A stretch of 64,000 nucleotides of DNA, from assembly GCA_009728235.1 (NCBI GenBank), contig WNZI01000008.1, positions 1-64,000 on the forward strand. Reading direction: 5' to 3'. Positions 11,246 through 22,985 of this stretch are shown here, piece by piece (positions within the stretch are counted from its first letter, which is position 1; each line of letters begins with the position of its first letter). Both the position numbers and the translations under genes were made by a program. The notes beneath the pieces are model-generated. The model had not been told where the DNA came from and did no database searches. It was given only the letters and a program-made list of their open reading frames with translations. Source of the stretch: Vibrio cholerae (GTDB lineage Bacteria; Actinomycetota; Actinomycetes; Actinomycetales; Micrococcaceae).

Positions 11246-11347
11246 CCGGAACCAGGCACCCACCGGACGTCGCGTTACCGTAACGTGATGACGGCGCTTC
11301 GGCGTCGACACGTATCCGGGGGCTAGTGGCAGAGGTTGGGCACGGAC

Positions 11348-13520
<2,173 letters not shown>

Positions 13521-13530
13521 CCGAAGGGGT

Positions 13531-13576
13531 TTGAACGTGTTCAATTCGGCGCTATGCTTCGATCTGAACACGTTCG
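13531..13576 (+). promoter_or_regulatory. TetR promoter with two GAAC-N2-GTTC operators
   Basis: Two copies of the same inverted-repeat site flank the promoter of the tetR gene. GAACGTGTTC at 13533-13542 lies in the TTGAAC -35 element (13531-13536). Its exact reverse complement GAACACGTTC at 13566-13575 covers the expected transcription start. TATGCT at 13553-13558 is the -10 hexamer, with a 16-base spacer. The site centres are 33 bases apart, about three helical turns, so dimers could bind cooperatively on one DNA face. This is the layout expected for autorepression by the adjacent TetR protein. Confidence 0.8.
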
Positions 13577-13586
13577 AAAGGACACC

Positions 13587-14252
13587 ATGCCGGCGCCGAC
13601 AGCGAAGAGCGAAGCGACCAGGGAACTGCTGGTGTCCACCGCGCTTCGACTCTTCCGCGAGGTCGGCTATGAGAAGGCGACCATGAGGGCCATCGCGTCA
13701 GCCGCGAACGTCTCGACCGGAAGCGCCTACTACTACTTCGCGTCGAAGGACGACCTCGTCCACGAGCTGTACCGGACCCTGCAGGAGGAACACCGGGCCC
13801 TCGCACTCCCCCGCCTCGGCGAAGGGCAGAATCTCGGCGAACTCCTCAGGACCGTCCTGCACACCGGCATCGACGTCATGACGCGGTACCACGACTTCGG
13901 CTCCGCCTTCGTCAGCATCGCCATCAAACCGTCTGCCACGACGAGCCCTTTCGGGAGCGAGTCGGCGATCGCGCGAGCAAGGGCCATCACCCTGTTCCGC
14001 ACCGCCCTCGCCCGGTCGAGGCCACAACCGCCGCTCGCCATCCGGGACGATCTTCCCGAACTCCTCTGGTACGCCTACATGGGGATCACGCTCTTCTGGG
14101 TGTACGACTCCTCACCCGACCAGGTCCGCACCCGTCGCCTCATCGACCAGGCGGCGCCACTGATCTCGAACCTCGTGATCCTCTCCCGTCTTCCTGTCGT
14201 GCGGAAGATTGTCGAGGACATCGTGCAGCTGATCCGCGGGACCCGGCAGTGA
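13587..14252 (+). CDS. TetR/AcrR family transcriptional repressor
   Basis: A 221-residue regulator. The N-terminal helix-turn-helix spans about residues 12-58 with the family pattern ATRELLVSTALRLFREVGYE, then TMRAIASAANVSTGSAYYYF and the K-D-D-L helix; the remainder is the variable ligand-binding domain. AAAGGA lies six bases before ATG 13587, so the longer frame from 13554 is rejected. It heads a tight operon: its TGA overlaps the next gene's GTG, and that gene overlaps the epimerase. Together with the operators upstream, this suggests it controls its own operon. The inducer is unknown. Confidence 0.9.
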   Translation: MPAPTAKSEATRELLVSTALRLFREVGYEKATMRAIASAANVSTGSAYYYFASKDDLVHELYRTLQEEHRALALPRLGEGQNLGELLRTVLHTGIDVMTRYHDFGSAFVSIAIKPSATTSPFGSESAIARARAITLFRTALARSRPQPPLAIRDDLPELLWYAYMGITLFWVYDSSPDQVRTRRLIDQAAPLISNLVILSRLPVVRKIVEDIVQLIRGTRQ

Positions 14253-14692
14253 GCGCCGGCGACCCGAGGCCCGACGACGGCAGCGCGGACCGGACGTCAC
14301 GACCTCCACCACGACACCACGTGACCTTCGGGCCGGGAGCCGTCTGTGTCGGTTTCCTCGTGGGCCTCGGGGTCCTCGCGCTCGCCTTCGCCTCGACCTG
14401 GGGTGCCGAGGCGCCGTCGGTCTTCCTCCTCGCGCTCTGGTACGGCCTCGGGGTCGGCGTCCTCACGGGGTTGCCTCTCGGCGTCGTGCTCGGACTCCTC
14501 CTCCGGCCGGTCCGCGACCAGTGGATCCACGTCGCGGTCTTCTTCGCCGTGTTCGCCGCGGCGGCCTTCCTCGTCACCACCCTGCTGTCCCCGTCCACCA
14601 TCGTCCGGGACAGTCTTCCCACCGCCGTCATCATCGGAGGCGCGGCAGCCCTGGCGCGCGCCAGTGCCTGGAAGCTGGTACGCGTGCAATGA
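14249..14692 (+). CDS. Small integral membrane protein in the TetR operon
   Basis: A 147-residue protein with a polar N-terminus of about 28 residues followed by four hydrophobic segments (near residues 30-50, 55-80, 90-110 and 118-135). No family recognised. It starts with GTG inside the TGA of tetR and its own TGA overlaps the ATG of the epimerase, so it is almost certainly co-translated with both. It could be a transporter-like or accessory protein regulated by the TetR repressor; that is context only. Confidence 0.7.
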   Translation: MSAGDPRPDDGSADRTSRPPPRHHVTFGPGAVCVGFLVGLGVLALAFASTWGAEAPSVFLLALWYGLGVGVLTGLPLGVVLGLLLRPVRDQWIHVAVFFAVFAAAAFLVTTLLSPSTIVRDSLPTAVIIGGAAALARASAWKLVRVQ

Positions 14693-15624
14693 GAATCACC
14701 AGGGTCACCATCGCCGGAGCCTCCGGGTTCATCGGCAGTCACCTCGTCCGCAGGTTCCTCGACTCAGGTGTCGAGGTGAGAACGATCGGCCGGTCCGGCG
14801 CCGCCGTCTGGGGGGACACCGATGCTCTCGCCGACGCCCTCGACGGGGCCGACCTCCTGGTGAACCTCGCGGGACGGAGCGTGAACTGCCGCTACAACAA
14901 GGCCAACGCGGACGAGATCTTCTCCTCGAGGGTGGACACCACGGAGGAGCTCGGTCGCGCCGTCGCCCTGTGCCGGTCGACGGGAGGCAAGCCGCCGCCG
15001 GTGTGGATCAACGCCAGCACCGGGACCATCTACCGCCATGCGACCGATCGGCCGCAGACGGAGGACGACGGCGAGCTCGGCACCGGCTTCTCCGTCTCGG
15101 TGGCGCGGGCCTGGGAGCGGGCCCTGGTGGACGCCGACGCCGACCCGATACGGAAAGTGGCTCTGCGGATCTCGATCGTGCTCGGCCCCGGCAGCGTGAT
15201 GACACCCCTCGTGACCCTTGCCCGCGTAGGGCTCGGCGGGCGCATGGGCCCTGGTACCCAGAAGTTCAGTTGGATACACCTCGAGGATCTCTTCCGTGCG
15301 GTCGTCTTCATCGCCGGGACACCATCGATCAGCGGGCCGGTGAACGTCGCGGCTCCCGGGATCGTGACCAACGCCGAGCTCATGGCAGCAATCCGCGGGC
15401 GCCTCTCCGTCCGCGCGGGCCTGCCCACGCCCGCGTGGCTCCTGGATCTCGGCGGGATGATCATCCGCACGGAGCCCGAACTGGTGCTCAAGAGCCGGTG
15501 GGTGTCGCCGCGCATCCTGCTCGATGCCGACTTCGAGTTCACCTACCCCACGCTCCGGCCGGCACTCGAGGACATCCTCTCCCGGAACCGGCTGGCCGCT
15601 CCCGAGCCGGTTCGGGCACACTAG
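14689..15624 (+). CDS. TIGR01777-type NAD-dependent epimerase/dehydratase
   Basis: A 311-residue extended SDR protein. The N-terminal Rossmann motif is TIAGASGFIGSHLVRRFLDSG, split here as TIAGASGFIGSHL and VRRFLDSG; NLAGRSVNCRYN and INASTGTIYRH mark the TIGR01777 (YfcH/Sdr39U1) group. The C-terminal DUF1731-like region (LPTPAWLLDLGGMIIRTEPE, then SRWVSPRILLDADFEFTYP) is intact. Substrates of this family are unknown. The ATG overlaps the preceding TGA as ATGA, making it the third gene of the TetR operon. Confidence 0.88.
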   Translation: MRITRVTIAGASGFIGSHLVRRFLDSGVEVRTIGRSGAAVWGDTDALADALDGADLLVNLAGRSVNCRYNKANADEIFSSRVDTTEELGRAVALCRSTGGKPPPVWINASTGTIYRHATDRPQTEDDGELGTGFSVSVARAWERALVDADADPIRKVALRISIVLGPGSVMTPLVTLARVGLGGRMGPGTQKFSWIHLEDLFRAVVFIAGTPSISGPVNVAAPGIVTNAELMAAIRGRLSVRAGLPTPAWLLDLGGMIIRTEPELVLKSRWVSPRILLDADFEFTYPTLRPALEDILSRNRLAAPEPVRAH

Positions 15625-15628
15625 GGGG

Positions 15629-16456
15629 ATGTCCGACACCCAGACCTCCCCACCCCCAGCCGTCACCCTGACCATCGCCGGATCCGAGGCCACGGGCGGC
15701 GCCGGCGCGCAGGCCGACCTCAAGACGTTCCAGGAGCTCGGCGTCTACGGCATCGTGGCGTTGACCTGCATCGTGTCCTTCGACCCGAAGAACGACTGGC
15801 AGCACCGTTTCGTACCCGTGGACCAGCAGGTCATCGCCGACCAGCTGGAGGCCGTCCAGTCCTGCTATCCCCTCCGCACCGTCAAGCTCGGGATGCTCGG
15901 CACCCCCGCAACCATCGACACCGTGGCCTCCGCCCTGAGGAGCCAGGAATGGGACAACGTGGTGCTCGACCCGGTGCTGATCTGCAAGGGGCAGGAGCCG
16001 GGAGCGGCCCTCGACACCGACCAGGCCCTCAAGGCGAACATCCTGCCGCTGGCCACCTTCGTCACCCCGAACCACTTCGAGGCGGAGTCGCTGTCCGGTA
16101 TCAGCATCGAGTCCCTCGAGGACCTCGAGGAGGCAGCCCGCATCATCCACCGCCAGAGCGGCGCCGTGGTGCTCGCGAAAGGCGGCGTGCGCCTCGAGGG
16201 TCCCGACGCCGTGGACGTCTTCTTCGACGGACAGACCCTCGAGGTCCTGTCCGCGCCGAAGGTCGGCGAGGTCGCGGTCAGCGGCGCCGGGTGCACCCTC
16301 GCGGCGGCCGTTGCGGCCGAACTCGCGAAGGGAGCCACTCCGCTCGATGCCGCCCGCACCGCGAAGGACTTCGTGACGGAGGGCATCCGCAACCGCGTGG
16401 CGTCCAACGCCCCGTTCGACGCCGTGTGGCAGGGTGGCCCCCGATCGTCCCGGTAG
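15629..16456 (+). CDS. pdxK: Pyridoxine/pyridoxal kinase, ThiD-like ribokinase family
   Basis: A 275-residue kinase that phosphorylates vitamin B6 (or hydroxymethylpyrimidine) at a hydroxymethyl group with ATP. It resembles the Bacillus PdxK/ThiD2 type: TLTIAGSEATGGAGAQADLK at the N-terminus, VVLDPVLICKG, FVTPNHFEAESLSG and the anion-hole/catalytic segment VSGAGCTLAAAVAAELAKG, in which the cysteine replaces the usual aspartate as in the PdxK-like kinases. It starts four bases after the epimerase stop, where AGGGGG abuts the ATG, so it may be read through from the TetR operon. The choice between B6 and thiamine pathway is inference. Confidence 0.85.
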   Translation: MSDTQTSPPPAVTLTIAGSEATGGAGAQADLKTFQELGVYGIVALTCIVSFDPKNDWQHRFVPVDQQVIADQLEAVQSCYPLRTVKLGMLGTPATIDTVASALRSQEWDNVVLDPVLICKGQEPGAALDTDQALKANILPLATFVTPNHFEAESLSGISIESLEDLEEAARIIHRQSGAVVLAKGGVRLEGPDAVDVFFDGQTLEVLSAPKVGEVAVSGAGCTLAAAVAAELAKGATPLDAARTAKDFVTEGIRNRVASNAPFDAVWQGGPRSSR

Positions 16457-16472: not shown

Positions 16473-17039
16473 GTGATCCCTCCTGCGGGCGCATCCGGTA
16501 CGGACCCCACGAGTGGTCGGAAGGACGATCGGACGGACTCGGCGCTCACGCGCATGCTGCCCGACGACGACGGGCGCGGGGAGAGCCGCAACCAACGCCT
16601 GGACCGCAACTGGCAGGAGATGCTGCAGGAGCTGCGCGTCATGCAGACGGGAATCCAGATCCTGACCGGCTTCCTTTTGACGTTGCCGTTCCAGAGCCGC
16701 TTCACGGAGCTCGACGACCAGCAGGTGATCGCCTACCTGTGCCTGGTCTGCCTCTCCGCGTTGATCACGATGACGGTGCTCTCCGCCGTGAACCTCCATC
16801 GGGTCCTGTTCGGGTTGAGGGTGAAGGACGCCCTGGTGCACCACACGGGCCGGATCATCCAGATCACCATCGCGATGGTCGGGCTCGTGCTCGCAGGAAC
16901 AGCGGGTCTGATCTTCGACCTCGTGGTCAACCGCCCGGCCGGGCTCATCACCGCCGGGGTCCTGCTGCTTGCGGTGTTACTGCTCTGGGTCGCCTACCCC
17001 CTCGCCGTCCGTCGTCGAGCGGTGCGCGCCCGGACCTGA
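16473..17039 (+). CDS. DUF6328-like four-helix membrane protein
   Basis: A protein of about 188 residues. After a polar N-terminus comes RNQRLDRNWQEMLQELRVMQ, then TGIQILTGFLLTLPFQSRF and three further membrane segments. This pattern matches actinobacterial DUF6328 proteins, formerly annotated loosely as sodium:proton antiporter-like; I know of no demonstrated function. I prefer GTG 16473, preceded by GGAACGGG, over GTG 16434, which lies inside pdxK. It is nearly convergent with the SDR gene (16-base gap). Confidence 0.7.
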   Translation: MIPPAGASGTDPTSGRKDDRTDSALTRMLPDDDGRGESRNQRLDRNWQEMLQELRVMQTGIQILTGFLLTLPFQSRFTELDDQQVIAYLCLVCLSALITMTVLSAVNLHRVLFGLRVKDALVHHTGRIIQITIAMVGLVLAGTAGLIFDLVVNRPAGLITAGVLLLAVLLLWVAYPLAVRRRAVRART

Positions 17040-22890: not shown

Positions 22891-22900
22891 TGCATCGATG

Positions 22901-22985
22901 CGGAGGATGGGGGATTTGAACCCCCGAGGGCGTGAACCCAACACGCGTTCCAGGCGTGCGCCATAGGCCGCTAGGCGAATCCTCC
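22901..22985 (-). tRNA. tRNA-Ser(GGA)
   Basis: A class II tRNA. The 7-bp acceptor stem GGAGGAT/ATCCTCC closes the molecule. The anticodon stem CACGC/GCGTG holds the loop CTGGAAC, giving anticodon GGA (complement of 22949-22951), which reads UCC and UCU serine codons. A long variable arm GGG-TTCACG-CCC and the T arm GGGGG-TTCAAAT-CCCCC follow. CCA is not encoded. Confidence 0.95.

Follow-up and report, generated by a model that had tools for sequence, protein, structure and literature searches.

A conserved TetR-family repressor probably acts both in cis and in trans on the gene for a TIGR01777/DUF1731 (SDR39U1-type) NAD(P)-binding protein, hereafter the SDR. We favour this reading because operators are present or absent jointly with tetR, also at SDR genes that are unlinked to it. 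With good confidence, we take TetR to repress its own operon and the SDR through TTGAAC-RY-GTTCAA, an operator predicted from sequence comparison and conserved across actinomycetes. The locus lies in a 64-kb stretch of DNA (the window), with the following features.

13531–13544, no strand assigned: predicted operator 1, TTGAAC-GT-GTTCAA, which includes the −35 element TTGAAC (13531–13536) and is conserved among 64 distinct twin operators
13553–13558, plus strand: −10-like hexamer TATGCT, between the operators, with a 16-base spacer from the −35 element
13564–13577, no strand assigned: predicted operator 2, CTGAAC-AC-GTTCGA, at the expected start site
13577–13582, plus strand: AAAGGA, from its sequence the likely ribosome-binding site of tetR
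13587–14252, plus strand: gene for the TetR-family repressor, ATG start, with TetR_N and TetR_C_23 domains and 3c07 as nearest solved structure
14249–14692, plus strand: gene for a small membrane protein, GTG start, of an unannotated family with conserved VRxQ..H and GR motifs
14689–15624, plus strand: gene for the TIGR01777/DUF1731 (SDR39U1-type) NAD(P)-binding protein, ATG start, without YxxxK

As originally predicted, the three genes overlap by four bases at both junctions (GTGA at 14249–14252, ATGA at 14689–14692). The start of the membrane protein (GTG, 14249) is uncertain, since its N-terminal tail varies among relatives. Family profile matches place tgt 5′ of the operon (12255–13520) and a pdxK/thiD-type kinase 3′ of it (15629–16456). 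Across relatives, the gap between tgt and tetR (13521–13586 in the window) measures roughly 70 to 4,400 bases, so the tgt–pdxK interval looks like a site of gene gain and loss. Two families of unknown function, DUF6707 (11336–12223) and DUF6328 (16494–17039), are encoded nearby, and the sole tRNA detected in the window is a tRNA-Ser (GGA; 22900–22985, minus strand). No direct repeats were found close to the operon promoter.

Two sites 33 bases apart had been predicted to flank the promoter, and the sequence agrees: GAACGTGTTC, at 13533–13542, contains part of the −35 element, and GAACACGTTC, at 13566–13575, lies at the start site. A generic scan for sigma-70 promoters, which applied stricter rules, listed none at the 5′ end of the operon. 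Single GAACNNGTTC sites number 3 in the window, against 0.65 expected, and 129 in the 3.75-Mb assembly. As a chance control, 300 Markov sequences, each 64 kb long, gave no pair at 5–35 bases. When the assembly was scanned for the GAAC-N2-GTTC pair, as the original prediction had proposed, the pair at the tetR operon proved to be unique, with no second one elsewhere. Further strict targets in the window's genome were rejected, the sole other TGAACRYGTTCA falling within a gene (L205).

The operator was defined from 64 distinct pairs taken from 70 loci (the window's, L020–L079 and L100–L108), with an RY centre required in the first site only. Their flanks give the consensus TTGAAC-RY-GTTCAA: at the two sites, T precedes GAAC in 62/64 and 63/64 and A follows GTTC in 64/64 and 57/64, and the second flanking bases are predominantly T and A/G rather than G and C. 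The centre of the second site, left free in the selection, is RY in 63 of the 64 pairs. TTGAAC is kept in 55 of these homologous pairs, and a −10-like hexamer with a 14–19-base spacer (most commonly 16) is found in 41, compared with 10.6 expected after shuffling. The two sites had also been described as mirror images, but this proved not to be meaningful. The mirror image is trivial, since either site is palindromic outside its two central bases; the GT/AC combination occurs in just 11 of the 64 pairs, with AC/AC the commonest (20/64). Mirror-image pairing was rejected as a separate feature, as the centres vary freely across the homologous pairs.

Spacing within the 64 pairs is 26–35 bases (33 in 27 pairs, 34 in 18) and 26 to 46 bases overall, with 60 in L087; the twin sites of Streptomyces-like tetR operons are 44–45 apart. 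This variability argues against tight cooperativity. Of 80 named loci, 74 have a pair no more than 1,100 bases upstream of tetR, located either directly before it or, where a membrane gene comes first in the tetR operon, before that gene. Four named loci have a single RY site, among them L024, whose second site has an AG centre, and two (L080 and L081) have none. Outside this 1,100-base upstream stretch GAACRYGTTC occurs as background twice in 76 loci, versus 154 occurrences in all 80. In Amycolatopsis, among others, tetR comes after a small membrane gene of another kind, and the operator pair precedes that gene. Neighbouring genes at such distant loci and in Streptomyces-like genomes were called by a home-made GC3 method, which overlooks or truncates genes in genomes of lower GC.

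Closer to home, we compared 57 genomes: the window's own, 34 of the genus and 22 of the order. A TetR match was present in 18 and the operator pair in 14, each time at tetR, so that the pair accompanies 14/18 genomes with a tetR match versus 0/39 without (Fisher 4e-10). Of the four genomes with a TetR match and no pair, G003 and G054 have one exact site, G020 has an altered centre and G028 a broken remnant of tetR. Comparison across loci and genomes shows the identity of the operator, its conservation and its joint presence or absence with tetR, and strongly supports the autoregulation that had been proposed for this repressor.

A co-occurrence search bore out the expected joint conservation of the three genes only in part. 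Among the 60 best named loci (L020–L079), an SDR match follows tetR in 58, 2 of these only partial, and a membrane-protein match is found in 8/8 close loci and 29/52 others (2 doubtful). Paenarthrobacter and Pseudarthrobacter have the swapped order tetR–SDR–membrane gene, in a locus still near tgt and often pdxK, and Rhodococcus has a tetR–SDR arrangement. Within the window's genus, an intact tetR match is present in 15 genomes, of which 8 keep the linked SDR. Among the others, the SDR is gone in G003, G006 and G027 and reduced to its tail in G012; all four retain the other two genes and one or more operators. Judged from these genomes, the genus is losing the SDR.

The corresponding picture at individual loci of close relatives (L100, L101, L102 and L023) is a decayed or missing SDR, while tetR and the membrane gene persist with one or more operators. 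In eight relatives the membrane gene is matched and tetR is not (2 of the 8 matches weak, 36% identical), and none of these eight loci contains GAACNNGTTC. In L110 and L111 the membrane gene follows tgt, with pdxK beyond it in L111, and the locus holds no tetR, SDR or operator. Linkage of the membrane gene is limited to Micrococcaceae and distant look-alikes; the wider unit is tetR, its operator and the SDR, often unlinked.

The usual operon in Streptomyces-like genomes encodes a membrane protein, a DCC1-like protein (39.9 bits against a cut-off of 27.8) and TetR; the Streptomyces cynarae record lists a hypothetical protein, DUF393 and TetR, with twin sites 45 apart. Unlinked SDR genes in these genomes have one site, about 55 bases upstream. 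Among 121 Streptomyces-like genomes (TetR orthologue at E up to 1e-50, SDR at E up to 1e-60), 93 have the TetR orthologue and 39 the SDR, 33 with tetR and 6 without. An operator lies 37–77 bases upstream of the SDR in 33/33 genomes with tetR versus 0/6 without, even at one mismatch (Fisher 3e-7; G392, one of the six, has a completeness of only 82%). A wider set, comprising 25 of 48 SDR-bearing genomes hand-picked after some operators had been seen and sharing 6 with the Streptomyces-like set, gave an operator before the SDR or the tetR–SDR operon in 18/18 with tetR and 0/7 without. On the SDR tree, tetR presence changes five times, with two changes forced by well-supported branches; given so few firm changes, the Fisher values overstate independence. 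The operator goes with tetR in all independent pairs on this tree, which fall short of the six or more that a sign test needs for significance.

Named records place the operator 54 bases upstream of the SDR in S. canus and Streptomycetaceae NBC_01309 and 53 bases upstream in Nonomuraea. In Nonomuraea gerenzanensis and G296 the operator was found at the SDR and none was found near the TetR homologue, and a partial SDR match in Nocardia farcinica had no operator. The SDR is missing, at the cut-off used, in 60 of the 93 tetR-bearing Streptomyces-like genomes, so it cannot be the sole purpose of the circuit. Six Streptomyces-like genomes (G074, G111, G127, G154, G243 and G251) hold 52 strict sites, of which 18 belong to the pair at tetR or to the SDR gene; 22 of the remaining 34 were read, and many are intragenic. 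In G074, G111 and G243, an operator 20–35 bases upstream marks an unannotated membrane protein of about 173 amino acids, 78–82% identical among the three and, from its sequence context, a probable extra member of the regulon.

L188, 1031–1552: ~173-aa membrane protein
L190, 397–936, minus strand: ~173-aa membrane protein
L203, 1072–1587: ~173-aa membrane protein

Sites at secY and galT in Streptomyces-like genomes were rejected as targets, being intragenic, and records outside actinomycetes had no telling neighbours.

Other regulators might occupy these sites. That they belong to a KstR-type regulon for cholesterol and lipid catabolism, with KstR rather than the local TetR bound to them, is very improbable. 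The KstR consensus TnnAACnnGTTnnA does cover the operator, and KstR sites in an excerpt of PMC1995591 include GAACACGTTC and GAACGTGTTC; however, the palindrome given in that excerpt is TAGAAC..GTTCTA, and here it is T that precedes GAAC in 62 and 63 of 64 pairs. KstR was above cut-off in 0 of the 57 genomes, including the 14 with the pair (best 46 versus 280 bits), in a search in which 14 control genomes also gave none and so provided no positive control. The local TetR scores 30.7 against the 280 bits of the KstR profile NF033703 and falls outside that family, and the operators track the local tetR instead. A shade less probable again is that these are Rex operators and the module part of NADH/redox control. 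Streptomyces Rex operators can hold GAACGCGTTC (ATGTGAACGCGTTCACAA at cydA1), but Rex requires TGTGAA..TTCACA, both according to an excerpt of PMC5355995, and the sites here, TTGAAC..GTTCAA, lack the Rex flanks. Rex would not account for tetR and operator being absent together, and Rex-like sites are recognizable as such, namely the one preceding the L216 cydA-like gene and probably those at ndh (gene names from sequence reading). The TGAAC..GTTCA sites before ndh or a cydA-like gene in L185, L192, L204 and L216 resemble Rex operators. Because Rex sites share the core motif, bare-core scans mix two regulons; the sites at ndh and the cydA-like gene fit Rex better and were therefore left out of the target count.

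A different alternative accepts the repressor and takes the membrane protein as its main output in the window's clade, with the SDR a passenger being lost. The four close relatives without an intact SDR, in which the other two genes persist with at least one operator, fit this reading, as do the eight relatives with a membrane-gene match and no tetR. So do the membrane proteins of L107, L109 and L164, which likewise overlap tetR by 4 bases and are distantly similar (hhalign 92%, with one side only 3 sequences). We nevertheless consider it unlikely: the SDR carries the operator across actinomycetes even if unlinked, and homology of the window's membrane family with the Streptomyces-type small membrane protein was rejected (hhalign probability 0.1%).

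The proteins of the window locus were assigned by profile and structure. TetR scores 62.3 bits for TetR_N (cut-off 24) and 80.9 for TetR_C_23 (cut-off 29.1), which places it in the TetR family. Its nearest named homologues, in A. agilis and other Arthrobacter, are 86–89% identical, which assigns the window to an Arthrobacter of the A. agilis group. The window TetR matches 3c07 at 2.3e-48, and recognition-helix residues are very similar among the 9 TetRs compared. The SDR scores 221.1 for TIGR01777 (cut-off 207.35) and 46.1 for DUF1731 (cut-off 27), and is thus a TIGR01777 oxidoreductase of the SDR39U1 type; it falls below the cut-off of the ThyD profile NF050030 (139.3 versus 400). Catalytic YxxxK is the motif of classical and extended SDRs. 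It is absent from the whole window protein, in which a GxxGxxG motif is present as GASGFIG. The family had been described as having no known substrate, and its NCBIfam model is indeed a ‘hypoth_equivalog’. A second TIGR01777 paralogue (G000:C13:22592–23446) is 34% identical, with similar copies in many genomes of the genus.

The membrane protein had been called unrecognized, and no Pfam or NCBIfam family scored above cut-off; a DUF1761 match (E 0.03) was below cut-off and set aside. Q91, H94 and R137 are common to 26 aligned sequences. AlphaFold gives a confident helical model (helices 29–84, 91–113 and 122–139; mean pLDDT 87), for which Foldseek returned no match at E ≤0.001. The best VIA-align Z, 5.7 over 51 residues, is not informative for a helical protein.

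In the proposed circuit, dimers of a classical TetR-type repressor would bind TTGAAC-RY-GTTCAA. At the window locus, two dimers, one over the −35 element and one over the start site, would switch off the promoter that drives TetR itself, the helical membrane protein and the SDR39U1-type enzyme, until a ligand frees TetR from the operators; we infer this binding, repression and release. The pairing of this TetR with its operator is kept across actinomycetes: Micrococcaceae and Rhodococcus have the SDR gene inside the tetR operon, and in Streptomyces-like genomes the operon instead combines tetR with genes for a different small membrane protein and for a DCC1-like thiol-disulfide oxidoreductase, while the unlinked SDR gene would be controlled in trans through a single operator. 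On balance we favour an undescribed actinomycete-wide regulon, in which an orthologous TetR (TetR_C_23) with a fixed operator would control, in cis or in trans, the SDR39U1-type protein, lineage-specific small membrane proteins and the DCC1-like oxidoreductase as parts of one pathway for one metabolite. More tentatively, we guess that the regulon deals with a membrane-associated or lipophilic, redox-active metabolite; the SDR would use NAD(P)H, and the membrane proteins would handle or sense the metabolite.

TIGR01777/SDR39U1 proteins occur in bacteria, animals and plants. The family models used assign them no substrate, and the circuit offers a handle on the role of this enzyme family. As the repressor tracks the SDR gene across actinomycetes, even where unlinked, it may be a natural sensor whose ligand should be near the substrate of the pathway or the stress it meets. 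The circuit would also join several unannotated membrane proteins and the DCC1-like protein to one regulon, and it predicts targets in genetically tractable Streptomyces. It was not found in listings of open-access papers on SDR39U1, on TIGR01777, on TetR with DCC and on TetR with Arthrobacter and epimerase, and no open-access paper was found on DUF1731 or 3c07. Among the TetR autorepressors in the open-access papers searched, TTGAAC-RY-GTTCAA with an SDR/membrane regulon was not found.

Several known systems bear comparison. KstR of mycobacteria shares the operator core AACnnGTT but differs in its TA/TA flanks and in governing lipid catabolism (excerpt of PMC1995591). Like other TetR-family autorepressors, the protein described here has a TetR_N domain and predicted palindromic operators over the −35 element and the start site of its own operon. 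The structure 3c07, which we take to be Streptomyces coelicolor SCO4850, is an orthologue of the Streptomyces-like TetR (E 5e-142), although its entry title says only ‘putative’ TetR regulator. SCO4850 is mentioned in the expression tables of two papers. The SDR aligns over nearly its full length with the nearest structures of the SDR39U1/TIGR01777 family, 3oh8 and 4b4o, the latter identified as SDR39U1 in the structure search; it differs in that the window member is apparently under a dedicated repressor.
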